Origin: a virus
Length of the DNA: 35,249 bases
Virus record (IMG/VR): IMGVR_UViG_3300012954_000029
Coordinates: 1-35,249 of that record
Direction: 5' to 3' (one strand)
In this document: one piece after another, positions 1,884 to 27,375 of the stretch
Layout of the letters: the number at the start of each line of letters is the position of its first letter
Position numbering within the stretch: the stretch's first letter is position 1
Made by a program: the position numbers and the translations under genes
Notes under the pieces: generated by a model
The model's database searches: none
What the model was told of the DNA's origin: nothing
Seen by the model: only the letters and a program-made list of their open reading frames with translations

Positions 1884-1914
1884 TTGACAAATGTGTATAT
1901 CTTAATACTATAAT
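1884..1914 (+). promoter_or_regulatory. Sigma-70-like promoter for the packaging operon
   Basis: A perfect -35 hexamer TTGACA (1884-1889) is followed after 19 bases by a perfect -10 hexamer TATAAT (1909-1914). The spacer is two bases longer than ideal. It precedes the 50-residue gene at 1947 and the sigma-like factor, so host polymerase could start this operon before phage factors take over. It overlaps a GTGTAT motif at 1893-1898. Confidence 0.6.
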
Positions 1915-1925
1915 ACTAGATACAC
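1893..1925. promoter_or_regulatory. Divergent GTGTAT...ATACAC pair between opposing genes
   Basis: GTGTAT at 1893-1898 on the plus strand faces the gene at 1947, and the same hexamer on the minus strand (1925-1920) faces the HTH gene at 1868. Each is about 48-51 bases before its start codon. The two form a 6-bp inverted repeat with a 21-base centre. This hexamer recurs in the other large gaps before structural operons and is a candidate phage promoter element; alternatively it is an operator. Confidence 0.45.
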
Positions 1926-1946
1926 CGTTTTTTGCAAGGAGCAAAA

Positions 1947-2099
1947 ATGAGTAAACCAATTGACTCTACATTAAATGTAAAAGCTTGTGCCAGTTTGGAT
2001 GTTTCAGATGACCTGGAAAAATCTCAAGGAAAGTGCATCAACGAGCTACTAGATGAACAAAAAGAAGATCAGGAAGAAGAAAAACACACTACCGAATAA
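1947..2099 (+). CDS. Small acidic protein (50 aa) leading the packaging operon
   Basis: The 50-residue frame starts at an ATG preceded by AAGGAG with a 5-base spacer. It reads MSKPIDSTLNVKACASLDVS and ends in a highly charged Glu/Lys/Gln tail (DEQKEDQEEEKHTTE). No domain is recognised. The last 47 bases are shared with the start of the sigma-like factor gene in another frame. Its position directly behind the promoter suggests an early regulatory or accessory role, possibly linked to the sigma factor by translational coupling, but this is inference. Confidence 0.6.
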   Translation: MSKPIDSTLNVKACASLDVSDDLEKSQGKCINELLDEQKEDQEEEKHTTE

Positions 2100-2700
2100 T
2101 GTAAGCGAAACAGAATTTTTAGAAGTATTAGACAATATAAGCAGACGACTAGGTAATAAATTTAAATTTGGATATCATACTTTTGAAGATATGAAACAAC
2201 AAGCCGCTATATTTGCTATAGAAGGCTTAAAACGCTACGACTCCAGCAGACCATTAGAAAACTTCTTATGGACGCATGTAAGAAACAGATTATTTAATTA
2301 TAAAAGAGATCATTATCAGAGACCAGATGTTCCCTGCAATACCTGTCCTTTTTTCGATCAACATTGTAAAAAAAGCCAGAGCATGTGTACAGAGTTTAGT
2401 AATAGAAACGATTGTGAACTTTACAACACATGGTACATAAGGAACAATGCCAAGAAAAACATAATGAAACCTGTGGACATAGAGAACACTCCTAGTCATA
2501 GTAAATCCTTAGATGTAGAAGATATAGTTGACAATACTGAGGTTTTAAATATAATAGATATTAAAATGCCTACCCAATATCGTGACCTATATTTAAAATT
2601 ACGACATGGAGATAAAATTACCAAAAACGACCAGAAGAAAGTTATTAGTATAATCCAAACTATCCTAACACAACACTACGAAAATGAACAAGATACCTAA
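2053..2700 (+). CDS. Phage RNA polymerase sigma-like factor with Cys cluster
   Basis: This 215-residue protein has a sigma-70 region-2-like core at about residues 42-90: HTFEDMKQQAAIFAIEGL, then KRYDSSRPLENFLWTHVR and a basic RNRLFNYKRDH. This parallels the 'DLvQEG...FD...F..Y....IR' pattern of region 2, which binds the core enzyme and the -10 element. It is followed by four cysteines (C95, C98, C105, C112), probably a zinc site, a feature I recall in phage-encoded sigma factors of this type. The C-terminal part is helical and may stand in for region 4. Late-acting phage sigma factors such as T4 gp55 switch host polymerase to virion genes. The start lies inside the upstream 50-residue gene; no in-frame ATG lies between 2053 and residue 47. 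Confidence 0.75.
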   Translation: MNKKKIRKKKNTLPNNVSETEFLEVLDNISRRLGNKFKFGYHTFEDMKQQAAIFAIEGLKRYDSSRPLENFLWTHVRNRLFNYKRDHYQRPDVPCNTCPFFDQHCKKSQSMCTEFSNRNDCELYNTWYIRNNAKKNIMKPVDIENTPSHSKSLDVEDIVDNTEVLNIIDIKMPTQYRDLYLKLRHGDKITKNDQKKVISIIQTILTQHYENEQDT

Positions 2701-3490
2701 GAAGCGTGGACAGCTATCTCTAGATGAAGAAGAGTATATAAGAGATAATTTTAATAAATTAGATATTAAACAAATTGCCACCCACTTAAACCGTACTCCT
2801 GCACCAATCAAAAGATATATATCTGAATCTAAATTGGAGTATATGAATGATCCTGAAGGCTATGACACCCTTAAAAATAAACTACACAGTAAAAGCTTTT
2901 GGAATGAAATAACCAGACAATTTGATGCTGAAAGCGGAGAATTAGAATATTTTGAAAATACATGGATTAATTTAGTAAAACAATTTCGTGAGGACGTACT
3001 TCCTGCAGAAGAATTACAAATTAAACAGTTTATCACTATTGACATTTTAATCAATCGTTCAATGAAAGAACGTAAAAGACATATAGCAGATACAGAGAAG
3101 CTACAGAAGCAAGTAGACTTTGAATACAGCTTGGCAGAAGAAGATAGGGACACGGCGAAACTTACTAATTTAGAAACTCAATTAAGTTTTGCAAGAAATA
3201 GTATTAGCTCCTATACGAACGAGTATACCAAACTTTTAAATGAACAGCAGAAGATTAGCAAAGATTTAAAAGCGACCCGTGAACAGCGTATCAAACGTAT
3301 TGAAGACGGTAAATCATCGTGGGTAGGCCTTATCAGAATGTTGGAAGACGAAGAGATAAGAGAAAAAGAAGGTAGGCAGATGGAAATATTAAACATGGCT
3401 ACGAAAAAAAGCAGAGAAAAATTAACAGAATACCACACTTATGCAAATGATATTGTAGATAAACCCTTTTTAACACCAGATGATGTATAG
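2684..3490 (+). CDS. terS: Probable terminase small subunit
   Basis: The 268-residue protein starts with a basic segment and a helix-turn-helix (residues about 10-50: LSLDEEEYIRDNFNKLDIKQ, then IATHLNRTPAPIKRYI). This suits the DNA-recognition domain of a small terminase subunit. A long, highly charged central region (about 110-215), rich in Lys/Glu/Gln, is predicted coiled coil and would make the oligomeric ring. It lies four genes upstream of the large terminase on the same strand and overlaps the sigma-factor gene by 17 bases and the HNH gene by 11. Small terminases are poorly conserved, so the call rests on architecture and position. A DNA-binding regulator is the main alternative. Confidence 0.65.
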   Translation: MNKIPKKRGQLSLDEEEYIRDNFNKLDIKQIATHLNRTPAPIKRYISESKLEYMNDPEGYDTLKNKLHSKSFWNEITRQFDAESGELEYFENTWINLVKQFREDVLPAEELQIKQFITIDILINRSMKERKRHIADTEKLQKQVDFEYSLAEEDRDTAKLTNLETQLSFARNSISSYTNEYTKLLNEQQKISKDLKATREQRIKRIEDGKSSWVGLIRMLEDEEIREKEGRQMEILNMATKKSREKLTEYHTYANDIVDKPFLTPDDV

Positions 3491-3749
3491 AAATTATAAA
3501 GATCCACAATATAAACAATGGAGAAAACAGGTCAAAAAATTAGACAATCATACATGTCAGTGGCCAGGATGTAATATGAAGAAACAATTACAAGTACATC
3601 ATATAAAAAGGTGGAGTGATTTTCCAGGGTTACGTTTTCATCCCAATAACGGTATAACATTATGCAGAAAACATCATTCGTTTATTAAGGATAACGAAGA
3701 TGCGTATGCAGAAACTTTTTTTAAAATAGTTAGTAATAGGAGAAGATGA
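3480..3749 (+). CDS. HNH endonuclease in packaging cassette
   Basis: This compact 89-residue HNH protein has C26 and C31, the HH pair (H40, H41) of LQVHHIKRW, N57 of NNGITLC, C62, and the H65-H66 pair of RKHHSF. This is the layout of small phage HNH enzymes encoded beside terminases, such as HK97 gp74. Those cooperate with the large terminase in cutting DNA during packaging. It overlaps the end of the small terminase gene and shares an ATGA junction with the next gene, so it belongs to the packaging operon. Two adjacent ATGs (3480 and 3483) are possible starts and neither has a clear ribosome site, so translational coupling is likely. Confidence 0.88.
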   Translation: MMYRNYKDPQYKQWRKQVKKLDNHTCQWPGCNMKKQLQVHHIKRWSDFPGLRFHPNNGITLCRKHHSFIKDNEDAYAETFFKIVSNRRR

Positions 3750-4369
3750 TGCTTAATATGAAACAGCCATATATATGCAAGTTAAAAAATGCAGTAACAT
3801 TACATAGATACAGGAATATTAAGGTTCATCCAGTTACTAAAAAAGAGCTGATTGTCGAACCTGCTACCTTTCATTTAGATGAATTAGCTGTATTTTTTCA
3901 AGATTATGAACAAGGCAAAATAGTTTTTGCTATTATAAAAGAGGTAGACACTCCTATTTTATTGTACAAAGAAGACGATTATGTTAAGTGGAAAGCAGAT
4001 GGAGGCACACTAGAAGGATTGCAACAGAGATTTGAAGAAGTGCTTGGTAAACATCCAGAATTATTTTTACAAGCACATATGCCACGCACTTTAGATAGTG
4101 ATCCTCATGGTCCAGGAACCATTCTTTCAGGCATGTTAGAAGCTGTAGGAATTAAGAGTTCTCCTACGTGTAGTTGTAAAAAACGCGCCGTTCGAATGAA
4201 TGTTGAAGGAAACGATTGGTGTGAAAACAACATGGAAGAAATATTAACTTGGTTATCAGAAGAAGCATCAAAAAGAAAACTACCTTTTGTAAAGCCTGTT
4301 GCAAAGTTAATTGTCAAAAGAGCAATCAAAAAGTCCCGTAGATTATTAAAGAAATATGGATCAACTTAA
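3746..4369 (+). CDS. Conserved phage protein with C-terminal Cys/Trp domain, function unknown
   Basis: This 207-residue protein has two parts. Residues 1-120 are a mixed segment with no recognised fold. Residues about 122-200 form a distinctive domain: GPGTILSGMLEAVGI, then TCSCKKRA (C142, C144), a DWCENN segment (C159), and a helical, strongly basic end (KRAIKKSRRLLKKY). I recall similar 'CSC...WCE' domains in phage and planctomycete proteins, without a known function. The cysteines could bind metal. AGGAG at 3738-3742 is too close (3 bases) to the ATG at 3746 and better placed (6 bases) for the ATG at 3749, so M2 may be the true start. It sits between nuclease genes in the packaging operon. 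Confidence 0.75.
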   Translation: MMLNMKQPYICKLKNAVTLHRYRNIKVHPVTKKELIVEPATFHLDELAVFFQDYEQGKIVFAIIKEVDTPILLYKEDDYVKWKADGGTLEGLQQRFEEVLGKHPELFLQAHMPRTLDSDPHGPGTILSGMLEAVGIKSSPTCSCKKRAVRMNVEGNDWCENNMEEILTWLSEEASKRKLPFVKPVAKLIVKRAIKKSRRLLKKYGST

Positions 4370-4814
4370 GATTATCATAGATACTAGGGAACAAAAACCT
4401 TGGGAGTTTCCTGGTCACACCACAGCGGTACAAAAGCTAGACACAGGAGATTATTCTGTAGAGGGTCTAGAAGATATACTTTGTATTGAAAGGAAGCAGA
4501 ACACATCAGAGTTTGCCAAAAACATTGTGGAGAAAAGGTATGACGATTGGACAGAGAGAATGTCGAAGTTTAAATATAAGTTTCTTTTGTTAGAATTTTC
4601 TCTATCAGACGTTTATCTGTTTCCTAAAAACTCTGGGATCCCAAAACATATGCTGAACAAAACAAGAATAAGTCCTAAGTTTTTAATTAAGAAACTTATA
4701 GAGTTATCTATATTACATGATATTCATGTGCTGTTTTGTGAATCCTCCTATACAGCATCTAAGTTTGCTGAAACAATCATGTATAAGGTTTATTCGAATG
4801 AACGAAAACAATAA
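4356..4814 (+). CDS. ERCC4/XPF-type nuclease
   Basis: The 152-residue protein is almost entirely an ERCC4-type nuclease domain. The N-terminal IIDTREQKPW (D9, R11, E12) is followed by LDTGDYS (D29, D32) and IERKQ (E45, R46, K47), the standard acidic and basic active-site set of the XPF/Mus81 family (GDxnERKxxxD). These metal-dependent enzymes cut branched or flapped DNA. There is no helicase or helix-hairpin-helix domain, so it is a stand-alone nuclease. It overlaps the preceding gene by 14 bases and the large terminase gene by 17. The location suggests it clears branches from replicating DNA before packaging, the job done by endonuclease VII in T4. That role is inferred. Confidence 0.85.
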   Translation: MDQLKIIIDTREQKPWEFPGHTTAVQKLDTGDYSVEGLEDILCIERKQNTSEFAKNIVEKRYDDWTERMSKFKYKFLLLEFSLSDVYLFPKNSGIPKHMLNKTRISPKFLIKKLIELSILHDIHVLFCESSYTASKFAETIMYKVYSNERKQ

Positions 4815-6831
4815 TTTAGAAGATGCTTGGTTAGGCTTAGGTGACTTATCTAAAATAGCAACACCAAACAATCCCATGATTGGTAGGTCTAAATATGATA
4901 TAGAACATCCAGACTACCATTTACTAAAAATATTAAGAGACCCAAAGTATCTTGCTACCACCTGTAAACTTCTATTCAACATAGAGCTGCATCCGATACA
5001 GGTGGCAATACTGCAAGAGTTCTGGGTACGACCTTTTCCAATGTTCATAGCAAGTCGTGGTTTTGGAAAGTCTTTTCTTATGAGTCTTTATTGTATACTG
5101 AAATGCACCTTTGTGCCTGGAACCAAAATTGTTGTTGTGGGTGCTGCCTTTAGACAGAGTAAAATTCTTTTTGAATATATGGAAACTATTTGGCGCAATA
5201 GTCCTGTCTTAAGAAGTATTTTTAGTGGTAATGACGACGGACCCAGAAAAGATGTTGATCGATGTACACTCCGATTAGGCGACAGCTGGACTATTGCTAT
5301 CCCTATGGGAGATGGTTCTAAAATCAGAGGTCTAAGGGCACATATCATTATTGCTGATGAATTTGCTTCTATATCTCCTGAAATATATGAAACTGTTGTT
5401 GCTGGTTTTGCTGCTGTTAGTGCAAGCCCTATTGAGAATGTAAAAGAAGAAGCTAAAAAACAGGCTATGAAAGATCTTGGTGTTTGGACAGATGAATTAG
5501 AAGTACTTACTAAGAAAATGGGAAATCAAGCTATAATAAGTGGAACTGCTGACTATGCTTTCAAACACTTTGCACAATACTGGAAAAGATATAAAGGTAT
5601 TATAGAAAGTAAGGGTGACCACAATAAACTTCAGGATGTTTTTGGTGAAGAGGTTCCAGACAACTTTAACTGGAGAGATTATAGTGTTATCCGTATCCCC
5701 TATGAGTTAATACCTAAAGGCTTTATGGATGATAAACAAATCAGTAGAGCAAAAGCTACTATCCATAATGGCACATATCAAATGGAATATGCCGCAGTAT
5801 TTGTAGAAGATAGTGAAGGATTCTTTAAGAGAAGTCTAGTAGAAAGCTGTGTGGTTGATGACAAAAAGTCTATCCTGGATCAAGACGAGAATGTTATTAT
5901 ATTTGATCCTGTTACTAAAGGAAATCCTGGAGCAAAATATGTTTACGGCATTGACCCTGCTAGTGAAAAAGATAATTTTTGCATTGTTGTTATTGAGCTA
6001 AGACCAAATCATAATAGGGTTGTATATGTGTGGACTACCAACAGAACTAACTTTAAGGATAGACAGAAGACAGGTCTAATATCTGAGCATGATTTTTATG
6101 GCTTCTGCGCAAGAAAAATAAGAGACTTAATGAAAGTGTTTCCAGCAGAAAGAATAGGTATAGATGCTCAAGGAGGAGGTATCGCTATAGAAGAGGCTTT
6201 ACATGATCCTGTACGGCTACAGTCTGGAGAACACTTAATATGGCCACTTATAGATTATGATGGTAAAAGTAAAGAGACAGATGTTCAACAAGGATTACAT
6301 ATCTTAGAAATGGTACAGTTTGCTAATGCCAATTGGACAGCCCAGGCTAATCATGGTTTACGAAAAGATATGGAAGACAAAAGGTTATTATTCCCAAGGT
6401 TTGATAATTTTTCTTTGGGTCTAGCGATGGAAAGAGAAAATCAGGATATATTAGAGGGTGATCTTAATCCTATATATGATAATCTTAGTGAATGTATTTT
6501 AGAGATAGAGCAACTTAAAGACGAATTAACAACAATTGTCATGACTCAGACAAGCACCAGTGCTGGGGCTAGAGATAGATGGGATACTCCAGAAGTAAAG
6601 TTACACGGGGGTAAAAAGGGCAGATTGCGGAAAGATAGATATAGTTCTTTAGTAATCGCTAATATGCTTGCGCGACAAATGACAAATGTTCTCAAACCTC
6701 CTACTTATGATGTTATCGGTGGAAATGCCAGAAACCATAGAGGTAAAGATAGTGGAGATATGTATAAAGGTCCAGAATGGTTTACTGGTCCAGCTAATGA
6801 CGATATTTATACAGGTATTTACAGAGATTAG
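4798..6831 (+). CDS. terL: Terminase large subunit (packaging ATPase-nuclease)
   Basis: The start is set at 4798 (MNENNNLEDAW), with AAGG nine bases upstream. The longer open frame from 4717 only shadows the ERCC4 gene. The 677-residue protein has a Walker A motif ASRGFGKS (K91) and a Walker B motif IIIADE (D187, E188) in the N-terminal motor. The C-terminal RNase H-like nuclease has three acidic anchors: D386 (GIDPAS), D456 (GIDAQGGG) and D613 (RKDRYSSL). It pumps genomic DNA into the procapsid through the portal and cuts the concatemer. The length is normal to slightly long. The portal gene follows after a 45-bp gap. Confidence 0.95.
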   Translation: MNENNNLEDAWLGLGDLSKIATPNNPMIGRSKYDIEHPDYHLLKILRDPKYLATTCKLLFNIELHPIQVAILQEFWVRPFPMFIASRGFGKSFLMSLYCILKCTFVPGTKIVVVGAAFRQSKILFEYMETIWRNSPVLRSIFSGNDDGPRKDVDRCTLRLGDSWTIAIPMGDGSKIRGLRAHIIIADEFASISPEIYETVVAGFAAVSASPIENVKEEAKKQAMKDLGVWTDELEVLTKKMGNQAIISGTADYAFKHFAQYWKRYKGIIESKGDHNKLQDVFGEEVPDNFNWRDYSVIRIPYELIPKGFMDDKQISRAKATIHNGTYQMEYAAVFVEDSEGFFKRSLVESCVVDDKKSILDQDENVIIFDPVTKGNPGAKYVYGIDPASEKDNFCIVVIELRPNHNRVVYVWTTNRTNFKDRQKTGLISEHDFYGFCARKIRDLMKVFPAERIGIDAQGGGIAIEEALHDPVRLQSGEHLIWPLIDYDGKSKETDVQQGLHILEMVQFANANWTAQANHGLRKDMEDKRLLFPRFDNFSLGLAMERENQDILEGDLNPIYDNLSECILEIEQLKDELTTIVMTQTSTSAGARDRWDTPEVKLHGGKKGRLRKDRYSSLVIANMLARQMTNVLKPPTYDVIGGNARNHRGKDSGDMYKGPEWFTGPANDDIYTGIYRD

Positions 6832-6871
6832 GTGTATGAAACTTGTAATCCCATTACAATAGAATTATAAT
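6832..6871 (+). promoter_or_regulatory. Candidate promoter(s) for the head operon
   Basis: The 45-bp gap before the portal gene contains a GTGTAT hexamer (6832-6837), and downstream of it TTGTAA (6843-6848), exactly 17 bases, and TATAAT (6866-6871). The perfect -10 hexamer ends 5 bases before the portal ATG, so a transcript from it would be nearly leaderless. No ribosome site is visible. The two signals may serve different polymerase forms. Confidence 0.45.
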
Positions 6872-6876
6872 ATAAC

Positions 6877-9081
6877 ATGCCAAAAAAATATCCAAAAAGT
6901 GACGCCATTCAAAACGTAAGTCCCACACCTCCTGAAGAAGCATATATCTTCTATGGAGATGATGAAGCTAGTAAAAATGAAGCTATGAAAGCTTCTGCTG
7001 GAGCATTAGATGAATATACTCTGATAGACGGGTATAATAATAAAGCTACTGCTCATTCTAGATATCGTACTGATTTTTCTAATTTAGACACAAATACATC
7101 AGGAAGACCAGGATTAACTCGTGGCGATTATGACTATTTTAGGCCAGATGAAGCAGTACCTAGAAAAGTCAAAAATGTAATGTATAGAGCTGATGATATT
7201 TATCAGCGTGTAGGGTTAGTAAAAAATGTTGTAGACTTGATGGGAGATTTTGCTACTCAGGGGATTAGGATTGTACACAGAAACAAAAGAGTAGAAAGAT
7301 TCTACAAAAGATGGTTTGAAAAATGCAACGGAAAAGATCGTAGCGAAAGATTTGTCAACAATCTTTATAAAACAGGTAATGTTGTTGTAGATAGGCAGAC
7401 AGGAAAGCTCACAACCAAAGCCACCGAAAAAATGTTCAAAGCCTTAGCTAAAGCTGATTTTGACATTGGCCCAGAAGAAAAAGTTGAAAAAAGAGTCATT
7501 CCTTGGAAGTATACTTTTTTGAATCCCTTATATGTTGATGTGGCTGCTGGGCCTTTGTCATCTTTTGTGCAAGATAAACGTTATGAGCTTGTCTTACCAG
7601 CAAATTTGCGTAAGCTAATTAATGCTCCTAAGAATGATGCAGAAAAACAAGTTGTTGCACAGTTGCCAGATCAGATTATTGAAGCCGCTAAGTCAAAGAT
7701 GAAATATCCATTAGATGCAAACAGGACGTCTGTATATCATTATAAAAAAGACGATTGGCAAACTTGGGCCTATCCTATGATATATGCAATCATGGATGAT
7801 ATCACGGTTATTGAAAAATTAAAGCTTGCGGATATGTCTGCATTAGATGGTGCTATTTCTAATATTAGAATATTTAAGTTGGGTAATTTAGAACATAAGA
7901 TTGCTCCAACTAAAGCTGCTACATCTAAACTAGCACAAATTCTAGGCAACAATGTTGGTGGAGGTACAATGGATTTGGTTTGGGGTCCTGATATTGAGTT
8001 ATTGGAATCTAAAACCAATGTACATCAATTTTTAGGAGAAGGTAAATATACTCCTCATTTAAATGCTGTATATGCTGGACTAGGCATTCCTCCTACATTG
8101 ACAGGAACCTATGGTGCAGCTGGAACTACAAATAATTTTATTAGTTTAAAAACTTTAACACAAAGATTACAATACGGTAGAGATGTTCTTATTAGATTTT
8201 GGCAGCAAGAGATAGAGCTTGTTCAGAAAGCTATGGGCTTTAAATATCCTGCCAGAATAGAGTTTGATAGAATGGACCTCAGTAATGAAGAAGCTGAGAA
8301 GTCTTTATTAATACAGCTAGCAGATAGAAATATTGTTAGTGATGAGATGGTTCGATCTAGATTTGGTCTTGATCCAGATATGGAAAAACTAAGAGTTAAT
8401 CAAGAACATAAAGAACATAAGAGAAAAACTAGTCCTCCTAAAGTTAGTCCTTATCATGATGCTAATTTTGAAAGTGCTATTAAGAAATTAGGTGTTCAGC
8501 TAGGTATGTTAACTCCTAGTGAGGTTGGGGTAGAATTAAATAATAAAGATTCCGATCAGCAAAACTTACTTGAGCTTAAGGATAAGTTTGAGAAGCAGAA
8601 GCCTAAGAAGCCTGTTGTTACAGAAAAAACCCCTGGTCAGCCAGGAGAAGGAAGACCTATGAATTCAAAGGATGCAGAGAAAAGAAAAGAAAAAGAATTT
8701 GCTCCACAAACAGGGGCCAGTTTATCTATTTGGGCTATAAATGCTCAAGAAGCTATATCTGAAATTGTTAATCCTATTATGCTGGATTTTTACGGAAAGA
8801 AAAATCTTAGAAGCTTATCTCATCTTGAGGCCAGTGAGCTAGAAGAGGTTAAATCTAAGGTATTATTTAATATTAAGCCATATTCGATTATAGATAGGGA
8901 TGCTGTGGAGTTGGTATTTAATACCATAAATACTCAAGCAAATTTAGAACTAATGGGACACTATATAGATTGGCAAAAATCTGTTCAGCAAGATCTTCCG
9001 CATACGATGTCTTTAGATGATCAAAAACAAGCGAAAGCATCTTTTTATTCCATGGTGTATACAATTTTACACAAAACATAA
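6877..9081 (+). CDS. Portal protein
   Basis: The 734-residue protein lies directly after the large terminase and before the protease, the invariant portal position. Residues about 85-150 (MYRADDIYQRVGLVKNVVDL, then GDFATQGIRIV and RFYKRWFEKC) resemble the N-terminal region of large portal proteins. The middle carries a glycine-rich stretch (GNNVGGGTMDLVWGPDIE), a GLGIPPTLTG segment and an ITVIEKLKLAD helix region typical of the stem/crown area. The C-terminal third is Lys-rich (KEHKRKTSPPKVS, then EKQKPKKP), with a final helical domain. Portals form the dodecameric DNA channel at one capsid vertex. There is no Shine-Dalgarno sequence before the ATG. Confidence 0.85.
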   Translation: MPKKYPKSDAIQNVSPTPPEEAYIFYGDDEASKNEAMKASAGALDEYTLIDGYNNKATAHSRYRTDFSNLDTNTSGRPGLTRGDYDYFRPDEAVPRKVKNVMYRADDIYQRVGLVKNVVDLMGDFATQGIRIVHRNKRVERFYKRWFEKCNGKDRSERFVNNLYKTGNVVVDRQTGKLTTKATEKMFKALAKADFDIGPEEKVEKRVIPWKYTFLNPLYVDVAAGPLSSFVQDKRYELVLPANLRKLINAPKNDAEKQVVAQLPDQIIEAAKSKMKYPLDANRTSVYHYKKDDWQTWAYPMIYAIMDDITVIEKLKLADMSALDGAISNIRIFKLGNLEHKIAPTKAATSKLAQILGNNVGGGTMDLVWGPDIELLESKTNVHQFLGEGKYTPHLNAVYAGLGIPPTLTGTYGAAGTTNNFISLKTLTQRLQYGRDVLIRFWQQEIELVQKAMGFKYPARIEFDRMDLSNEEAEKSLLIQLADRNIVSDEMVRSRFGLDPDMEKLRVNQEHKEHKRKTSPPKVSPYHDANFESAIKKLGVQLGMLTPSEVGVELNNKDSDQQNLLELKDKFEKQKPKKPVVTEKTPGQPGEGRPMNSKDAEKRKEKEFAPQTGASLSIWAINAQEAISEIVNPIMLDFYGKKNLRSLSHLEASELEEVKSKVLFNIKPYSIIDRDAVELVFNTINTQANLELMGHYIDWQKSVQQDLPHTMSLDDQKQAKASFYSMVYTILHKT

Positions 9082-9090: not shown

Positions 9091-10683
9091 ATGAAAATAT
9101 ATAAACAAGAAATAGCTGATGGTATAGATGCATTAGTGGCTAGTCAAGCGTGTATTACCTATGCTTCTGTCGCTGAACCTTGCGAAGATACCAAAGCTTT
9201 TGCTTTTAATAATATTAAGAGTGTTGCAGCTATTGAGGATAAAGATTTATATTATGTTCAGTCTATTTTAGTTAGTAGTACTTGGAATAAAAACGACGAT
9301 GTGTTTGATAGGGGAGAAGTTTGGAAAGCCAAAAGTACACCAGAAGATAAGCCAACCAATCTGGAACATGATGAAAGTGTCGTTGTTGGACATATTACTT
9401 CTAATTATCCTATAGACGATAATGGTCAGGTTATTCCTGTAGAAACATTAGAAAACGATTTACCTGAAAAATATCATATCCTAACAGGCTCTGTAATATA
9501 TAGGGCTTATAGTGATCCTGAGCTTAAAGCTAGGGCAGAAAATTTAATTAGAGAAATTGAAGAAGGCAGTAAATATGTTAGTATGGAGTGTTATTTTAAG
9601 AATTTTGATTATGGTTTAATGAACCAAACTACTGGTGAATTTAAAGTTTTAGCCAGAAAAGAAGATACTGCCTATTTAACAAAACATCTAAGAGCTTATG
9701 GTGGCACTGGCCAACATGAGGGTTATTCTGTTGGTAGAGTATTAAGAGATATTACTTTTAGTGGTAAAGGCTTCGTTGACAAGCCTGCTAATAATGATAG
9801 TATAATTTTTAGTCGCACCATGTTGAATAAATTTTTAGAAGATAAAAACACTGATTTTGAAAAAAAGGGTGTAATAGACAATAAGCCGTTTTCTAAGCCG
9901 GAGAAAAAAACTATGAATCTAGAAGAGACCGTCGAAAAGATGAATAAGAAATTAGAATCGCTTCTAACGTCTGAAGCATTCGCATCAACATACAGTAAAG
10001 CTTCAGATCTTGAAGTCAAGGTTTCTGAGTTGGAAACTAAGGCGGAAGAATCTGCTGAGGCTTTGACCGAACAAACTGAAAAGTTCACTGCACTTGAAGC
10101 TTCAATTGCAGAGAAAGATGAACTTGTAAAGGCCCTTGAGGAAGAAAAAACTTCTTTGAAAGAACAGCTTGACTCAGTTAATGAAGTTCTTGCTGGCTAC
10201 AAAGAAAAAGAAGAAGAAATGGCCAAGAAAGAAAAAGCATTAAAAAGACGGGCATCTCTAGTAGAGGCCGGTTTAGATGATGAGGCAGCAGAAGCTGCAG
10301 TGGCTAAATTTGAGAATCTTGATGACGAATCTTTTGATTCTGTCGCTCTTGTTATCACCGAAGCAGCTAAAACAGCTGAGGCAAAGATGCCACCAGCTCT
10401 TAAAGAAGCTTTAGATAAGAAGAAAGACAAAGAAGAAGATGAAGAGGCAGTCATGAAGAAGAAGCCAAAGGCTTCTGAAGAAATTGTTGCTGAAGAAACA
10501 GAAGAGACTGAGGCAGCAGAAGAAGAGGCAGACGAGGTGATTGCAGAAGCATCTGATCTTGAAACAGTTGAGACTGACGAAGAAGTTAGCCTTTCTGTAG
10601 CAGGTGAAGAAGAAGTTTCCGCAGTTGAAACTACTCGTGCAGCTTTAGTTGATTTTGTTAAGTCTAGACTTCAAACCAAGTAA
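9091..10683 (+). CDS. Prohead protease fused to scaffold
   Basis: The 530-residue protein has an N-terminal protease-like domain (about 1-240). H93 in NLEHDESVVVGHI and S164 in KYVSMECYF match the His/Ser catalytic pair of prohead serine proteases (U35/S78 type, as in HK97). The segment ITFSGKGFVDKPANN is the typical domain end. From about residue 275 the chain becomes a long Glu/Lys/Ala coiled coil (MNLEETVEKMNKKLESLL onwards) ending in a very acidic tail (EEEADEVIAEA), the character of a scaffold. Scaffold drives procapsid assembly and the protease later digests it. The gene sits between portal and capsid genes. An in-frame start at 9913 may also make scaffold alone. Confidence 0.82.
   Translation: MKIYKQEIADGIDALVASQACITYASVAEPCEDTKAFAFNNIKSVAAIEDKDLYYVQSILVSSTWNKNDDVFDRGEVWKAKSTPEDKPTNLEHDESVVVGHITSNYPIDDNGQVIPVETLENDLPEKYHILTGSVIYRAYSDPELKARAENLIREIEEGSKYVSMECYFKNFDYGLMNQTTGEFKVLARKEDTAYLTKHLRAYGGTGQHEGYSVGRVLRDITFSGKGFVDKPANNDSIIFSRTMLNKFLEDKNTDFEKKGVIDNKPFSKPEKKTMNLEETVEKMNKKLESLLTSEAFASTYSKASDLEVKVSELETKAEESAEALTEQTEKFTALEASIAEKDELVKALEEEKTSLKEQLDSVNEVLAGYKEKEEEMAKKEKALKRRASLVEAGLDDEAAEAAVAKFENLDDESFDSVALVITEAAKTAEAKMPPALKEALDKKKDKEEDEEAVMKKKPKASEEIVAEETEETEAAEEEADEVIAEASDLETVETDEEVSLSVAGEEEVSAVETTRAALVDFVKSRLQTK
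9913..10683 (+). CDS. Nested in-frame scaffold protein (internal start)
   Basis: Inside the protease-scaffold gene an ATG at 9913 (codon 275) is preceded by GGAG at 9900-9903 with a 9-base spacer, exactly where the coiled-coil scaffold begins. Initiation here would give a 256-residue free scaffold protein sharing the C-terminus of the fusion. The same arrangement is known from lambda, where Nu3 is nested in gene C. The SD-like sequence could be chance in a purine-rich linker, so this is a proposal. Confidence 0.45.
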   Translation: MNLEETVEKMNKKLESLLTSEAFASTYSKASDLEVKVSELETKAEESAEALTEQTEKFTALEASIAEKDELVKALEEEKTSLKEQLDSVNEVLAGYKEKEEEMAKKEKALKRRASLVEAGLDDEAAEAAVAKFENLDDESFDSVALVITEAAKTAEAKMPPALKEALDKKKDKEEDEEAVMKKKPKASEEIVAEETEETEAAEEEADEVIAEASDLETVETDEEVSLSVAGEEEVSAVETTRAALVDFVKSRLQTK

Positions 10684-12208: not shown

Positions 12209-12235
12209 GCCTTAATCATTATTTGGTTGAAACTG

Positions 12236-12264
12236 GGGCTGGCGTAAAAACCAGCCCTTTTTTT
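12236..12264 (+). terminator. Intrinsic terminator after the capsid gene
   Basis: GGGCTGG (12236-12242), an 8-base loop, CCAGCCC (12251-12257) and seven T residues (12258-12264) form a textbook Rho-independent terminator. It closes the head operon 28 bases after the capsid stop codon. Confidence 0.93.
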
Positions 12265-12281
12265 ATATATTTATATATAAG

Positions 12282-12287
12282 GTGTAT
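12282..12287 (+). promoter_or_regulatory. GTGTAT motif, candidate promoter of the fibre operon
   Basis: AGGTGTATC follows the capsid terminator directly and lies 34 bases before the next start codon. Because the terminator ends the head transcript, a new promoter is expected here. The hexamer is the element shared with the other large gaps. An AT-rich run (12262-12280) lies just upstream; no classical -35/-10 pair is obvious. Confidence 0.4.
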
Positions 12288-21297: not shown

Positions 21298-21298
21298 T

Positions 21299-21907
21299 AT
21301 GAATATAAATGTTAATATGGACAAAGCAAAGAACATCTGGAAAGATAAAATTCGTGCAGACAGACAGCCTTATTTTGAATCTTTAGATGTGGACTACCTT
21401 AAAGCTACAGAGGCTCAGAATGTAACACTAAAAAGCCACATAGAAACAAAGAAGCAACAGCTTCGTGATGCTCCAGAAGATTCTAGGATTATAGATGCCA
21501 CAACGCCGGATGAATTAAAAGTTGTAGATCCTGTTTCTGAAATTATGTATATAACAGAACTAGATCAAGCTAAGTTAGATAAGCTTACAGAGATAGACGA
21601 GGATTGGAAAGCAATACTTAATACTGGTTTTGAAACACCAGAAGGGTGGAGTCTTGGCATTACCACAGATGATGTAGCATTGCTAAATGGAGCATATTCT
21701 CTCGCCAAAGAAGCTGCCGCCCTTGGTTCTACAGACCCTGTAACTATTTTAGATACTAATGGTGAACCTCACTCATTAAGCGTGGCTGAAATGACACCAA
21801 TAATGTTAGCGTATGGTGCTGCAAGAGCTTCGCTAAGTGGAGCAGATGCAGCTAGAAGAAAACTGGTTAAAGACGCAACAACCGTAGAAGAACTAGCGGA
21901 GATATAA
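21299..21907 (+). CDS. Probable tail-fibre assembly protein (202 aa)
   Basis: The protein has an excellent GGAGG ribosome site. Residues 1-65 (MDKAKNIWKDKIRADRQPYF, then KKQQLRDAP) form a helical, charged segment frequently found in phage genes just after fibres. Residues about 110-202 (ETPEGWSLGITTDDVALLNG, then VAEMTPIMLAYGAARASL) resemble a DUF4376-like tail-assembly domain with its Trp and Ala-rich helices. The high Ala/Glu/Asp content and lack of repeats suggest a soluble chaperone rather than a fibre. I am moderately sure of the chaperone role and less sure of the domain name. Confidence 0.6.
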   Translation: MNINVNMDKAKNIWKDKIRADRQPYFESLDVDYLKATEAQNVTLKSHIETKKQQLRDAPEDSRIIDATTPDELKVVDPVSEIMYITELDQAKLDKLTEIDEDWKAILNTGFETPEGWSLGITTDDVALLNGAYSLAKEAAALGSTDPVTILDTNGEPHSLSVAEMTPIMLAYGAARASLSGADAARRKLVKDATTVEELAEI

Positions 21908-21908
21908 C

Positions 21909-22574
21909 ATGAGTGTAGCCAGAGATATAAGTAGACAAACTTCAAGACAGACTTCAATCCTAACAGCAGACCAAACGTCGGTTACTGTTACTGGTGGATT
22001 TAGTGGCTCTAGCCTTGAGACTTATCTTAATGGAGTTAGGCTTATTCAGAGTTCAGATTATACCCTAAACGGAACTAGTGGCATAACATTAACGCAGGGC
22101 GCTAGCGCTGGTGACATCATTGAGTTCTCTATTCGCAACACTTCCAACTCTGGGCTTAGTGCGGTTAATACTAATGAAATTGTAGATGGCTCTATTACTT
22201 CAGCCAAGCTATCTACTAGTGCAACTGAATCTGAAAATTTAAAAAACAGAGTAGCTTTTGCTTGGGTTAAATTTGATGGAAATCAATCAGCAGCAAGTAT
22301 GATATTAGAGTCTTATAATATTGATAGTATTACAGACGATGGAACAGGTAACTATAAAGCTAATTTTACAGTTGCCCCACCCAATGCAAATTATTGTTCT
22401 GTTATTTCAAGTAATGGACAAGTAAATGGACAGCATGTCGTTCCTTTCGTTGGGGCAAATTCGTCTGTGGGTGGAGCAGTAAATAATGTCAACTATGTGG
22501 ATATAGTTTGTATTAATGTTACTAATTCTAACTACAGACAAAACTGCAAGATACACCTTGTTGTGTTTACTTAA
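21909..22574 (+). CDS. Tail fibre / receptor-binding protein with NGVRL module (221 aa)
   Basis: Residues about 12-75 carry a module (SVTVTGGFSGSSLETYLNGV, then DYTLNGTSGITLTQG and GDIIEF) that also occurs twice near the C-terminus of the giant fibre. It is a modular beta domain common in phage fibres. A helical linker (NLKNRVAFAWVKFDGNQ) leads to a C-terminal beta domain (about 115-221) containing FTVAPPNANYCSVISSNG and ending KIHLVVFT. That part resembles the 114-residue protein at 20702. A GGAG ribosome site is present. It probably forms a short fibre or an alternative head. Confidence 0.7.
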   Translation: MSVARDISRQTSRQTSILTADQTSVTVTGGFSGSSLETYLNGVRLIQSSDYTLNGTSGITLTQGASAGDIIEFSIRNTSNSGLSAVNTNEIVDGSITSAKLSTSATESENLKNRVAFAWVKFDGNQSAASMILESYNIDSITDDGTGNYKANFTVAPPNANYCSVISSNGQVNGQHVVPFVGANSSVGGAVNNVNYVDIVCINVTNSNYRQNCKIHLVVFT

Positions 22575-22592
22575 TATAGGCGGAGAAATACT

Positions 22593-23120
22593 ATGACAAA
22601 AACATACGACAACGCAATCCGCACAGGCAAAGAGTTCCTTGGACAAGTAGTAACCACTGTTTATACTGGTAAGACAACATATTCTGTTCTAGGTGGTGGG
22701 AATGTTGGAACATATATGACAGTTTTAGACACATCCATAACTCCTACCGCATCCAATAGTAAAATTAGAGTTGACTTAAATATTTCAGGTGAATTTCATA
22801 ACGATATGGTATTTAGAGTTTCTAGAAGTATTGATGGAGGTGCAGAGACTGAGGTTGTAAGAAATGATGATGCTAACTATTGGTCAGGGTGGGGACTTGT
22901 AAACTATGATGCCAATAACGCCTCTACTGGATGGACCAATCATTATATTTGTATTGACAGTCCAAATACTACCTCGACAGTAGAATATCATTTTATGATT
23001 CAATCAGCTGGTGTTGCAGCGACATCAATATCTTTAAATAGAACAAAAAATTCCACTGGAGCTGCAAACTATGAGAATGGAGTATCGCAAGCCATATTAA
23101 CGGAGATTTTAGTAGTATGA
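22593..23120 (+). CDS. Beta-rich tail / receptor-binding protein (175 aa)
   Basis: The 175-residue protein has a GGAG ribosome site and begins TKTYDNAIRTGKEFLGQVVT. A jelly-roll-like series of strands follows: YMTVLDTSITPTASNSKIRV, DMVFRVSRSIDG, STVEYHFMIQSAG and a final ILTEILVV. Proteins of this general pattern (a short linker then a compact beta head) are common at the ends of phage fibre operons. The role as a receptor-binding head or minor tail protein is inferred from position and composition. It overlaps the next gene by 4 bases. Confidence 0.65.
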   Translation: MTKTYDNAIRTGKEFLGQVVTTVYTGKTTYSVLGGGNVGTYMTVLDTSITPTASNSKIRVDLNISGEFHNDMVFRVSRSIDGGAETEVVRNDDANYWSGWGLVNYDANNASTGWTNHYICIDSPNTTSTVEYHFMIQSAGVAATSISLNRTKNSTGAANYENGVSQAILTEILVV

Positions 23121-23443
23121 AAAAAACTATAGAAATACATGATGCACTAATGTCGTTAATACCAAACGTCAGATTTTCTGTTGAAGACAATGACTTTGAC
23201 AAAATTGAAATCCAAGACGGAGGCGTAACTGTTCCGTCCAGACAAGACATTCAAAATGAAATAGAAAGACTACAATCTATAGAAGACGCTATAGAATACC
23301 AGCACAATAGAAGAGAACAATACCCAGAAATAGGAGATCAATTAGATATGCTATGGCACGCTATTGATACAGGATCTTTAGATAAAACATCAGACTTTTA
23401 TTTGTCTCTTAAATCAGTTAAAGATAATAACCATAAAACTTAA
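23117..23443 (+). CDS. Conserved small tail protein (108 aa), XkdW-like
   Basis: The first half (IHDALMSLIPNVRFSVEDND, then DKIEIQDGGVTVPSRQDIQ) and the end (YPEIGDQLDMLWHAIDTGS, then YLSLKSVKDN) match a small phage protein type found after fibre genes, similar in pattern to XkdW of PBSX-like elements. The C-terminal 'YP.IGDQLD.LWHA' motif is very characteristic. Its exact role is unknown; it is often taken to be a tail-fibre assembly helper. It ends the fibre cassette, and a 53-bp gap with a GTGTAT motif follows. Confidence 0.7.
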   Translation: MKKTIEIHDALMSLIPNVRFSVEDNDFDKIEIQDGGVTVPSRQDIQNEIERLQSIEDAIEYQHNRREQYPEIGDQLDMLWHAIDTGSLDKTSDFYLSLKSVKDNNHKT

Positions 23444-23462
23444 AGAAGAAACATGCTTAATA

Positions 23463-23468
23463 GTGTAT
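23463..23468 (+). promoter_or_regulatory. GTGTAT motif before the neck operon
   Basis: TAGTGTATATATAATTATAT lies in the 53-bp gap after the fibre cassette, 28 bases before the start at 23497. An overlapping TATAAT lies at 23468-23473. With the other large gaps it forms the recurring GTGTAT set. Confidence 0.4.
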
Positions 23469-23496
23469 ATATAATTATATAGATTACGGAGATACC

Positions 23497-24042
23497 ATGG
23501 CAGATTTTTACTTTCCATCACCTAGCGGTAACACTACTGATATCAGAGAGTCTGGTACTATAGTGAAGATTATCAAAAAAAATAGTAAGTTTAAGGTTAT
23601 AAAAACCAATAAGCCTACTATTGGTGATACAATATCATTAACGGCCACCCCTTTAGGTTCTCCAAATAGTGTTACTTCGTGGTCATTATCATACGACAAT
23701 AGCCAAACTACTACAGACGATAATTTAGACAGATCAGATACAGCTTTACCAGACACAAATCCTACAATAAATATTTATGATACGGACTTATTATCTATTT
23801 TAGTTCTGCCAAAAACATTTAGTAATGCTGGTGAAGTCGCAAATTTAATTTTAACTTCTAATGCTAGTTCGCATCCTTATCAAAGTCTTAGTGTTGGTAG
23901 TGTTGTTAATAATCCAGAAAATAGCGGTGTAATTAAATGGAATCCAGGAGTAGGTAATACTGGAACATTTTTTTATCGATGGAAAGATTCGCTAGGAGTA
24001 TCTTCTGCTGGCGGCACGATTACTGTTACTTCCACTCCTTAA
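23497..24042 (+). CDS. Structural protein with possible degenerate cupredoxin-like fold (181 aa)
   Basis: The 181-residue protein has a GGAG ribosome site and a predicted all-beta chain. Its C-terminal half (SNASSHPYQSLSVGS, then GVIKWNPGVGNTGTFFYRW and GGTITVTS) parallels the two cupredoxin modules of the giant fibre (AHPFQFQT, WEVRHDTPNILYYQC, GLVYV). H126 may match the first copper ligand, but the Cys-x2-His-x2-Met loop is missing, so copper binding is unlikely. The similarity is judged by eye and is weak. The gene opens the neck group and could be a neck whisker or minor tail protein. Confidence 0.6.
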   Translation: MADFYFPSPSGNTTDIRESGTIVKIIKKNSKFKVIKTNKPTIGDTISLTATPLGSPNSVTSWSLSYDNSQTTTDDNLDRSDTALPDTNPTINIYDTDLLSILVLPKTFSNAGEVANLILTSNASSHPYQSLSVGSVVNNPENSGVIKWNPGVGNTGTFFYRWKDSLGVSSAGGTITVTSTP

Positions 24043-24059
24043 ACACGAGAAATTATATT

Positions 24060-24584
24060 ATGTCTACACAATGGATATTAGAAATACCCCTTATCGTAAG
24101 AACTTGGATAAACGATTTATCTGATAATCCTACCTACAGTGACGATAGGTTGCAGCAGGTTATTATTGTTGCTGGACAATATGTAACTAGAGAAATAAAT
24201 TTAAACATTAAGTATAATTGCGATATTGTAAATCTTGACATTAGCCCAGATCCTTCTGCGCCTAATAGAGATGAAACATTTATTGCTTTTGTAGCTCTAA
24301 AGGCAGCATGCATTTTAGATCAAAGCACATTTAGAACCAAAGCTGCTGGAGAGGGTATTAGAGCAGGTGTGGGTGCTGCTAGTGTTGCTGTCGCAGGGAA
24401 CCTAAAAGGCTATAAAGAAATTCTTGATGTCGGCCCTTGCGCCATGTATGAAAAACTAAGAATGGAATATGAAATAGGTAATGCTAATGGTATCAAGGCT
24501 GTTCTTGGACCATTTGTAGGCAACAATTTTGATGCCAGATATTTAAATAGAGAACACGGAAGATCTAGAGACTTCTTTTCATGA
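24060..24584 (+). CDS. Head-tail connector (adaptor) protein
   Basis: The start at 24060 (MSTQWILEIPLIVRTWINDL) is chosen over an upstream extension that only overlaps the preceding gene. The 174-residue protein is mostly helical. Its patterns DRLQQVIIVAGQYVTREIN and ETFIAFVALKAACILDQSTF, then AGEGIRAGVGAASVAV, recall small helical adaptor proteins that dock beneath the portal (gp6/gp15-like position). A Gly/Ala-rich loop follows the helices. It leads a row of four overlapping neck genes. The assignment is by predicted fold and order. Confidence 0.65.
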   Translation: MSTQWILEIPLIVRTWINDLSDNPTYSDDRLQQVIIVAGQYVTREINLNIKYNCDIVNLDISPDPSAPNRDETFIAFVALKAACILDQSTFRTKAAGEGIRAGVGAASVAVAGNLKGYKEILDVGPCAMYEKLRMEYEIGNANGIKAVLGPFVGNNFDARYLNREHGRSRDFFS

Positions 24585-25780
24585 TAGACCTAACTGCTGT
24601 TAAAAATTTATATAATAATGCTATAGATGACTTACTGTCTTCTAAAGGATTGGCTGTGCCTTGTAATGTTGTACACGAAGATCCTAGTGGGTCAGGATGT
24701 CCAAACTGTGTAGTAAATCCTATTACGGGAAGATCTACCAGCAGGTATTCTCAGCCTACATTAGCTCCTGACCTTGAGATCAAAGCTTCTGGAGGTGTAC
24801 CAGAAGACATGTTTATATTTTATATAGACGAAAACAGTAATTATTACAGCAGTGGAAATCAAGAAATTCAGATGAGTGGGATGACTCTCTTTAGGGAAGC
24901 ATTTCCTAGTAGCTTGGTGTTCTTTTTAGATGTAGAACATCCTTTAGGCTTTCAAACCTTATATCCTAGCGGTTTTTTTGACGACGGTCTCACTTTTTCT
25001 TCAAGAGAAAGTATTGGTAAGCTTTTAGTCAGAGATAGTGGTAACCCAGCTTCTGCTGAAAACTCTTATCAGATATTACAGAACATTATTAGTAGTGGAG
25101 TAAGTTCTACTGCTAGTGGCATTTTTTATAATAGTAATACCGCACATATACTTAGAGATAGCTCTAATAGCCTGGTGCCTAATGACGTAGCCGCTACATT
25201 TAGTGGTTTAGTGTCTAGTTTTAATGGTTTAAATGTTAGTGTAAGAAACACTGACTCTATTTGGCAGCACGAGGAGCTGTTATGCGGTTTTGCTCATGAT
25301 ACGTGTTTCAATAGAACGGATGCTATAGACGCTTTTATTGATACTCATTGCGACGGTCGTGTGCTCAGTTCGTTTAGAGAAACATACAATACACACTGTT
25401 CTGGAGAAGATTACTTTCCTGCTCCAGTTTCAGAAGAAGTTGCTTCCGGAGAATATATTTGGTTTCCTGAAGGCCATATATGTCCTGTTTGTAATGGAGT
25501 AGGTTCTTTTCCGGTTACTACTACCGAGTCACAAGACATAGTGGTAATTTTTGATAATAAAAAATTTATTAATTTTGGTAATGTTAATGTGCCTCAAGGA
25601 GATATGCAGACTATAACTCCTATCACTATGTATACAACATTAAGTACAGCAGATTACATACTTGTAGACACATCGGTTACTCCCTACACACAAAACAAGT
25701 TTACTAGAGTTTCAGAACCACAACCAGTGGGATTAGGAGAAAATAAATATATTTTTACTAATTGGCAAAGGAGTGCTTAG
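24581..25780 (+). CDS. Neck protein with zinc-ribbon halves split by a large insertion (399 aa)
   Basis: The N-terminus (LTAVKNLYNNAIDDLLSSKG, then SGCPNCVVNPITGRSTSRYS) and the C-terminal part (HICPVCNGVGSFPVTTTESQ) each carry a CxxC pair: C40/C43 and C301/C304. In the small phage neck proteins I recall, these two knuckles lie close together and form one zinc ribbon. Here about 255 residues intervene, containing an Ala/Ser/Phe-rich domain and several extra cysteines. The last 80 residues return to the expected beta domain. Such proteins act at the head-tail joint. It overlaps both neighbours. Confidence 0.65.
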   Translation: MIDLTAVKNLYNNAIDDLLSSKGLAVPCNVVHEDPSGSGCPNCVVNPITGRSTSRYSQPTLAPDLEIKASGGVPEDMFIFYIDENSNYYSSGNQEIQMSGMTLFREAFPSSLVFFLDVEHPLGFQTLYPSGFFDDGLTFSSRESIGKLLVRDSGNPASAENSYQILQNIISSGVSSTASGIFYNSNTAHILRDSSNSLVPNDVAATFSGLVSSFNGLNVSVRNTDSIWQHEELLCGFAHDTCFNRTDAIDAFIDTHCDGRVLSSFRETYNTHCSGEDYFPAPVSEEVASGEYIWFPEGHICPVCNGVGSFPVTTTESQDIVVIFDNKKFINFGNVNVPQGDMQTITPITMYTTLSTADYILVDTSVTPYTQNKFTRVSEPQPVGLGENKYIFTNWQRSA

Positions 25781-26415
25781 TGCAATTTACAGTAAACTTA
25801 TTGGAGTCAGACAACAAGATAACTACAGCTATATTAAAAAGCTTGCTATCAGACACTAAAAATTATATGGGTCAAGTTTCTAAAAAACTGGAACCTAAAA
25901 TTAGAGATATAGTTAAACAGGCATTTTTAAATAGTCCAGAATATAGATCTCTTTTGTCTGGGCAGCTAAGATATGAGTTTGGATTAGTTGATCCTGCAGC
26001 TAAAGTTAATCAAATATTAGCAGTTTGGGATAATGTGGTAGTTAGTTTTGATTCTCCAAAAATTAAAGCAAATCAGATTCACGGGAAATTAGTTATAGCT
26101 ATGATTAATAGTAATTATAGTGATGTTCTTGCATTAGACGCCAGTAGACAAGAGACAAAAAAGGGGCAGTCCTTAGCTTGGTTAGAGTGGTTATTGCTTA
26201 TGGGTGACAAAACTATAATCAAAGACTATGAGATATTTTTGGGTTCTGGTCGCAATTCTAGAACCGGTGGAGCTGTTATGAAGAAGGTTGTAGGAGGTAA
26301 ATGGAAAGTCCCTAGTCAATTTTCTGGTAGTTCTAAAAATAATTGGGTAACTCGTGTATTAGATAGTGTTGAAACAAAAATAGATGATGCTATTAAAAAA
26401 GCGGTTAAATTATGA
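25780..26415 (+). CDS. Neck / tail completion protein (211 aa, GTG start)
   Basis: Translation probably starts at the GTG at 25780: AAGGAG at 25768-25773 lies six bases upstream, and the GTG shares one base with the preceding TAG stop. A TTG at 25762 extends the frame but overlaps the ribosome site. The 211-residue protein has helices (TAILKSLLSDTKNYMGQVSK, then KIRDIVKQAFLNSPEYRSLL), then an YEFGLVDPAAKVNQILAVWD segment and a Lys-rich end. The 'YEFGL.DP...' turn is a feature I recall in phage neck proteins. Placement between two neck genes supports a head-to-tail joining or tail completion role. Confidence 0.6.
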   Translation: MQFTVNLLESDNKITTAILKSLLSDTKNYMGQVSKKLEPKIRDIVKQAFLNSPEYRSLLSGQLRYEFGLVDPAAKVNQILAVWDNVVVSFDSPKIKANQIHGKLVIAMINSNYSDVLALDASRQETKKGQSLAWLEWLLLMGDKTIIKDYEIFLGSGRNSRTGGAVMKKVVGGKWKVPSQFSGSSKNNWVTRVLDSVETKIDDAIKKAVKL

Positions 26416-27362
26416 GTACATTTTACGGCGTAGATAATATAGGAAATAATCTCCTAATCAATCAGCTAGAAACAAACATGAAGTCTTTTCTAGATTGGGG
26501 ATTTCTTAATACTGGAGGTTTTGTAAATATACACAGACCTGTTAAAAATATTCACGAGAATGGTTTATATAAATTATATACAGTCAAAGATGCTAATTTT
26601 AAAGATGGTAGGGTTTGGCAACCAGCAAGAAAAGATTGGGTGTATGAAACAGGTTTGGATGTAAATAAACATCAACCTATTCCTATTAGCGGAATATATA
26701 TCAATAATACTTTTTACGACACCACCACCTCAGGAACTTACGCTTATACTATAGATTATAAAAATAGTAGAATTATATTTAATAACAGACAGTCTTCCAA
26801 TCTAAATATAGAAATGAGTCATTCTTATAGGTGGGTTCAGATATACAACTTTGCAGACGCAAAATGGTGGCAAGAATTACAGTATAACCCAAATAATAAT
26901 GAAGCTCATCAAAAAACTAAAGATAAGGGTGATTTTACTATTCCTGCACATCAAAGAGTACAGATGCCAGCTGTAGTCATAGAGACTGTTGCTAGAGGTA
27001 CATCGGATCCATTTCAAATGGGAGATAAATCTCAAAGGATTTCTCAAGACTTTTTGTTCCATATTATAGCTAATAATTATACGGATAGAAACAATATTAT
27101 CGATATCCTAAGATTGCAAGAAGATAAAGTACTATCTTTTTACGATATGGATAAAGTGGTTAAAGATGGCAAATACTGGTTAAATTTTGATGGGACACTT
27201 AATCCCAATAGACTTCAATATGATGCTTTATGTAAGCTTTCTAGCACATATCATTGGAATACATGTAGATTAAAAAATATGGTTATTTCAGAAGTAGAAT
27301 CGTTTAATGTTGATCTTTATGAGGCAAATATCAGAGTAACTGCTGAAATTATAATAGTTTAA
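26412..27362 (+). CDS. Virion neck or tail-terminator-like protein (316 aa)
   Basis: The 316-residue protein overlaps the previous gene by an ATGA. It begins MSTFYGVDNIGNNLLINQLE and is rich in Asn, Tyr and Trp, with beta segments such as GTYAYTIDYKNSRIIFNN, SYRWVQIYNF and ANIRVTAEIIIV. It has no catalytic motif or membrane segment. Its place directly before the tail-tube genes suggests a tail terminator or head-tail joining component. I do not recognise a family. The size is well below that of a contractile sheath, and no other sheath candidate exists. Confidence 0.6.
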   Translation: MSTFYGVDNIGNNLLINQLETNMKSFLDWGFLNTGGFVNIHRPVKNIHENGLYKLYTVKDANFKDGRVWQPARKDWVYETGLDVNKHQPIPISGIYINNTFYDTTTSGTYAYTIDYKNSRIIFNNRQSSNLNIEMSHSYRWVQIYNFADAKWWQELQYNPNNNEAHQKTKDKGDFTIPAHQRVQMPAVVIETVARGTSDPFQMGDKSQRISQDFLFHIIANNYTDRNNIIDILRLQEDKVLSFYDMDKVVKDGKYWLNFDGTLNPNRLQYDALCKLSSTYHWNTCRLKNMVISEVESFNVDLYEANIRVTAEIIIV

Positions 27363-27369
27363 AAAAAAT

Positions 27370-27375
27370 GGTGTA
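27370..27375 (+). promoter_or_regulatory. GTGTAT motif before the tail-tube operon
   Basis: ATGGTGTATAATAG in the 60-bp gap before the tail-tube gene contains GTGTAT fused to TATAAT (27373-27378). It lies 47 bases before the start codon at 27423, which has its own GGAG ribosome site. Tail tube is made in many copies, so its own promoter is plausible. Confidence 0.45.

Follow-up and report, generated by a model that had tools for sequence, protein, structure and literature searches.

The question raised by this locus is whether the hexamer GTGTAT, which recurs ahead of start codons in a viral DNA fragment, acts as a promoter element and which sigma factor would read it. The window, that is, the whole stretch of DNA analysed here, is an IMG/VR virus fragment of 35,249 bp with a G+C content of 37%. 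An initial annotation had reported GTGTAT in nearly every large intergenic gap of this fragment and had proposed a sigma-like factor encoded at position 2053 as the candidate reader. The features of the window that enter the argument are the following.

1540–1545, plus strand: GTGTAT without a facing gene, in a terminator-like stretch, probably a chance occurrence
1884–1914, plus strand: overlapping promoters before the sigma operon (TTGACA 1884–1889, GTGTAT in the spacer 1893–1898, TATAAT-like box 1906–1914)
1920–1925, minus strand: GTGTAT before a leftward HTH gene, probably non-functional
2053–2700, plus strand: gene of sigma A, a probable region-2 sigma factor and the candidate reader of GTGTAT
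6832–6837, plus strand: predicted GTGTAT late promoter box before the portal gene (ATG at 6877)
9055–9060, plus strand: GTGTAT within the portal coding sequence, at its 3' end; the start codon at 9091 follows after 36 nt
12235–12258, plus strand: intrinsic terminator (8 pairs, 6 of them G-C, and a T-run) immediately ahead of a GTGTAT box
12282–12287, plus strand: predicted GTGTAT late promoter box before gene 12322
23463–23468, plus strand: predicted GTGTAT late promoter box before gene 23497, also present in contig G001
27371–27376, plus strand: predicted GTGTAT late promoter box before gene 27423, whose assignment as a tail-tube gene is tentative
31595–31600, plus strand: GTGTAA in the loop of a terminator-like hairpin, probably no site

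Placement of the Hexamer in the Window

The two strands of the whole window together contain 22 copies of GTGTAT, where 22.15 are expected; the hexamer is not enriched overall but in the gaps, and the claim therefore rests on placement. Our recount agrees with the initial annotation in that the hexamer lies at 1893, 6832, 12282 and 23463 (the fifth copy begins at 27371 rather than at 27370), that 28–49 nt separate its last base from the start codon, and that five of the six gaps longer than 40 bp preceding plus-strand genes contain it. The chance expectation of 0.1–0.2 copies given there is close to what we obtained from dinucleotide shuffles of the six gaps, in which a mean of 0.16 gaps carried a copy. 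As 19 of 1000 shuffles (1.9%) have some hexamer in five of the six gaps, the window by itself is only suggestive. The proposed count of gaps versus genes, made in five large contigs, gave 1.6–5.6 copies per kb in gaps and 0.1–0.3 per kb in genes, on either strand. The statement that nearly every large gap carries the hexamer holds for the late module only; other gaps of these phage genomes have a TTGACA/TATAAT promoter or neither motif.

The minus-strand copy at 1925–1920, which had been annotated before the leftward HTH gene, is present but not conserved: sense GTGTA was found in only 3 of 74 relatives of this gene, which rules out a conserved divergent promoter. For the sixth gap (31557–31632), GTGTAA at 31595–31600 does lie in a terminator-like hairpin as described, but it is probably no functional variant of the hexamer, since GTGTAA occurs 27 times in sense and 21 times in antisense orientation, with no strand asymmetry. 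The plus-strand GTGTAT at 1540, given as a counter-example, indeed faces no gene and is probably due to chance. In the stretch 1526–1566 it has a C-rich arm on one side and a G-rich arm on the other, imperfectly matched and with a T-run behind them, an arrangement that resembles a terminator loop and is comparable to that of GTGTAA at 31595.

Conservation in Related Phages

A search with the terminase gave 80 related IMG/VR loci with 70–98% identity, on contigs of up to 230 kb. In the gap between the terminase and portal genes, GTGTA is present in all 80 loci and the full hexamer in 75, right behind the terminase stop codon and 43–67 nt ahead of the portal ATG. Among the 62 distinct contexts of this gap, GTGTA is the only conserved column, and the flanks have diverged; all 61 distinct gaps contain it, versus a mean of 5.6 and a maximum of 14 in shuffles.

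When counted by homologous gene, GTGTA lies upstream of the portal gene in 93 of 93 cases, upstream of relatives of gene 12322 in 32 of 39 (with one antisense), of gene 24057, which is the gene next after 23497 with its box at 23463, in 14 of 15, and of gene 27423 in 6 of 8. By the same count it was found before none of 97 terminase and none of 68 capsid genes, and only 2 of 72 relatives of gene 10704 have it upstream.

The portal gap has a further peculiarity. Between GTGTAT and the portal ATG, the window (6838–6876) and the homologous gaps contain ATTACAATNNN repeats phased at about 10–11 bp, which stand in place of a clear ribosome-binding site; ATTACA occurs in 41 of 61 gaps. Contig G002 (159.7 kb, the contig of locus L005) carries two portals, two sigma A genes and two copies of gene 12322, and its two structural modules stem either from a genuine duplication or from an assembly that fused two phages.

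Strand Asymmetry and Motif Profile

Upstream k-mers were compared with their own reverse complements, in five large contigs first and then in all loci, with approximate gene calls from our own script. In the five large contigs GTGTAT was the most asymmetric hexamer (58 versus 4), with the ribosome-binding word GGAGAA (39 versus 0) and TTGACA (41 versus 9) behind it. It was also the most strand-asymmetric hexamer in the 990 distinct upstream regions (taken from 3.1 Mb of sequence) of the relatives, where the annotation had suggested a motif search, with 193 sense and 20 antisense copies. The position of the hexamer in these regions peaks at 40–59 nt ahead of the start codon, and within 26–66 nt there are 179 sense versus 13 antisense copies.

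The consensus profile is rGTGTATAww. The 151 nonredundant sites show neither conservation at the −35 distance nor a downstream box in a fixed place. Downstream of GTGTAT, TATAAT occurs 61 times in sense versus 54 times in antisense orientation with no fixed spacing, and a sigma-70 −10 box there was rejected. Over half of the upstream regions have neither GTGTAT nor a TTGACA-type motif, and some have both.

As a control, the same ranking was applied to 50 kb of phage T4, where ATAAAT and TAAATA, the core of the known late box of this phage, rank second and third among hexamers, although from only 26 regions. The enrichment of GTGTAT is absent in the control runs with T4 and with Microcystis phage MaeS.

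Selection on Nucleotides at the Portal 3' End

The initial annotation had missed a conserved GTGTAT at 9055–9060, inside the end of the portal gene. In 56 of 82 relatives GTGTA precedes gene 9091, with the site within the end of the portal coding sequence. The Val-Tyr pair of the portal tail at this site is encoded as GTG-TAT/TAC in 61 of 61 cases, whereas in the rest of the portal gene GTG makes up 6% of Val codons and GTG-TAT/TAC is used for 4 of 222 Val-Tyr pairs; this codon choice is not explained by the protein sequence and indicates selection on the nucleotides. Conservation among relatives, strand bias and codon choice thus confirm the observation on GTGTAT beyond the modest statistics of the window.

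Gene Classes, Terminators and Early Promoters

Where GTGTAT stands in front, the leading gene has matches to portal, protease, tail, fibre, head-closure, baseplate and PhoH families; where TTGACA does, the matches are to SSB, DNA ligase, RIIA/RIIB, dCMP deaminase and sigma factors. The two classes tend to exclude one another (odds ratio 0.36, p = 3e-7). A T-run lies at most 25 nt upstream of 36 of the 151 nonredundant GTGTAT sites, versus 6 at the downstream control place; in the window, the stretch 12235–12287, a terminator and then GTGTAT, is an example. The gene classes and the placement behind terminators are more in line with a promoter than with a signal for RNA processing or translation. 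Judged from sequence, the reading of GTGTAT as a promoter-like regulatory element is strongly supported by its conservation, orientation, position, post-terminator placement and codon-level selection.

In the early TTGACA/TATAAT promoters of contigs G001, G002 and G003 (for example, at loci L090 and L105–L107) the spacer contains a conserved CCGATAA or, alternatively, GTCGATATAACACTT is found behind the −10 box. The related word GCCGATA occurs 55 times in sense and never in antisense orientation among the 990 upstream regions.

The region before the sigma operon is represented by 16 relatives of the small gene at 1947, of which 15 have GTGTA and 14 have TTGACA upstream, and in most of these 16 relatives GTGTA sits in the spacer of the TTGACA/TATAAT promoter. 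This position suggests that the host polymerase sets expression going and that feedback, or autoregulation, follows.

The Candidate Reader

Region 2 of sigma-70 factors binds the core polymerase and reads the −10 element. Sigma A consists of a probable region 2, an insert with four cysteines and C-terminal helices without a recognisable HTH; its AF2 model has one long terminal helix where the HTH would sit, and no PF04545 match was found at its gene. The match to Pfam region 2 (Sigma70_r2, E = 2.7e-4) is below the cut-off, and the sigma family phrog_1740 matches 39 of 41 sigma A members with a best E of 8e-7. Its fold matches are mostly sigma factors, T4 gp55 among them, all with E > 0.001; for gp55 (7d7c_F) the values are E = 0.84 and a target TM of 0.43 over 128 columns. 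A PDB sequence search with the sigma A profile gave no match, gp55 included, tblastn found no sigma A among the cultured phages in the collection, and a profile comparison of sigma A with the second sigma factor of these genomes, sigma B, gave no meaningful alignment.

At residues of about 95–121, just past region 2, sigma A has four invariant cysteines in a zinc-like arrangement, followed by an invariant RN..K.N. In contig G013 (that of locus L127) the sigma A frame at 44381–45013 contains one internal TAA, which marks either a pseudogene or an assembly error.

The sigma A gene opens the late module and was found in all 53 loci with enough upstream DNA and in all nine searched contigs of 200–238 kb. 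The proposal that the factor encoded at 2053 reads GTGTAT gains from the missing −35 helix, from the single-box motif and from the presence of the gene in every testable relative; these genomes also encode, outside the window, another sigma factor whose region 4 is intact. Because sigma A has no −35-reading helix and the motif has no second box, sigma A is the best-fitting reader, and a plausible one.

That sigma B instead reads GTGTAT as the late promoter box is, in our estimate, unlikely. Sigma B, with region 2 and an intact region 4, the −35-reading domain, is found outside the window in 11 of 12 large contigs, its homologs in G001, G003 and G006 being 47–55% identical, and its gene in G002 lies behind a TTGACA promoter, which would suit a late regulator that is made early. 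However, a working region 4 ordinarily recognises a −35 box, and no such box goes with GTGTAT at the 151 nonredundant sites; its competitor sigma A heads the late module and suits a one-box promoter, and no sigma B was found in G007, which is a partial contig. A third motif class for sigma B was sought in the regions without either motif and gave nothing convincing; the top gapped pairs there resemble the reversed sigma-operon promoter.

Proposed Model and Alternatives

Taken together, these data indicate that GTGTAT is probably the single-box late promoter of a clade of aquatic phages and that its most likely reader is sigma A. In the proposed model, GTGTAT (rGTGTATAww) would be the sole promoter box of the late genes in this clade, with genomes of roughly 200–240 kb. 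The main sigma factor of the host would read the ordinary TTGACA/TATAAT promoters of early and middle genes, and promoters of this type would also drive the sigma A operon. Sigma A would then join the host core RNA polymerase and open the DNA at GTGTAT, as T4 gp55 does at TATAAATA, and there the portal, head, tail and fibre operons would begin their transcripts, which would have short leaders. GTGTA in the spacer of its own promoter would allow sigma A to regulate its own synthesis. The role in transcription start, the choice of sigma A over sigma B, the timing and the autoregulation are what we infer from the motif and its surroundings.

A further-reaching version, in which sigma A is a self-sufficient late sigma factor whose four-Cys insert and C-terminal domain replace the −35 reader and gp33/clamp, with a novel box and a self-boosting operon, is conceivable, and we put it forward tentatively. 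A search for the host through genome contigs led only to two MAG contigs; their labels are unrelated, and both are probably phage contigs caught up in binning.

The position of GTGTA in the TTGACA/TATAAT spacer before the sigma operon, a place known for regulator sites, could be taken to mean that GTGTAT binds an activator or another DNA-binding regulator that aids the host RNA polymerase at weak late promoters. We consider this quite improbable, as the late genes have no −10 box at a fixed distance, TATAAT is not strand-biased, and GTGTAT is strictly directional and not palindromic.

Even less credible is a function at the RNA level, in which GTGTAT would mark the 5' end of late messages for processing or translation. 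The restriction of GTGTAT to the sense strand, always upstream of start codons, would agree with such a signal, but it stands anywhere from about 26 to 67 nt ahead of the start codon, it often lies just past an intrinsic terminator, a place that calls for a fresh start of transcription, and early genes avoid it. Chance selection of a hexamer from the many gaps of one AT-rich phage, to which the shuffle rate of the window and the lack of a global excess might point, is refuted by the relatives (80/80 loci, 193:20 strand bias, 61/61 codon choice) and has a negligible probability.

GTGTAT as sole late box with sigma A as its reader would provide a regulatory code for widespread uncultured giant aquatic phages, whose late operons could be drawn from sequence alone, and promoters hidden inside coding sequence would also become readable. 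Sigma A and GTGTAT form a testable pair for the question of how region-2-only sigma factors acquire new −10 specificities, for which T4 and related phages have so far been the main objects of study. In the open-access papers searched, GTGTAT was not found described as a phage promoter.

Comparison with Known Systems

Jumbo phages of the phiKZ/AR9 type carry out late transcription with their own multisubunit RNA polymerases (PMC5312081, PMC4666361). The phages with GTGTAT share with them large genomes and a late promoter class of their own, but a cellular-type RNA polymerase subunit was not found in seven contigs, in a search whose positive control matched. The profile of the T7-type polymerase, PF00940, gave no match and was silent on its control too. 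Host main-sigma promoters with TTGACA-N16/17-TATAAT serve the early genes of the same phages and overlap GTGTA before the sigma operon, whereas the late GTGTAT sites have neither box at a fixed position.

The closest parallel is provided by the late promoters of T4, which consist of one box (TATAAATA) with no −35 conservation and are read by gp55 with the host core RNA polymerase, activated by the gp45 clamp and by gp33, a protein of low sequence conservation (PMC2988020, PMC7892883; for the conservation of gp33, PMC2988020). For the T4-like phages KVP40, 44RR, S-PM2 and Aeh1, family-specific single-box late motifs have been found in silico (PMC2988020); these are near copies of the T4 box, and GTGTAT differs from them.

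The clamp of the T4 system was not detected in the GTGTAT phages: the T4-type profile PF02916 gave no match, with a weak control and possibly incomplete contigs, and the DnaN-type profile PF00712, whose positive control matched, was absent from 10 contigs, also possibly incomplete. Unlike in T4, the box is rGTGTATA and not TATAAATA or a close variant, and sigma A differs from gp55 by its invariant four-Cys insert and by the greater length of its C-terminal helical domain. With a different box and sigma architecture and no clamp detected in these contigs, we do not file the GTGTAT system as a member of the T4 gp55 type. It nevertheless looks as if it works in a T4-like manner, with a single box at a −10-like place, an AT-rich stretch just downstream, no −35 conservation, late and virion genes behind it, and a phage sigma factor of the probable region-2 type without a region 4 HTH.
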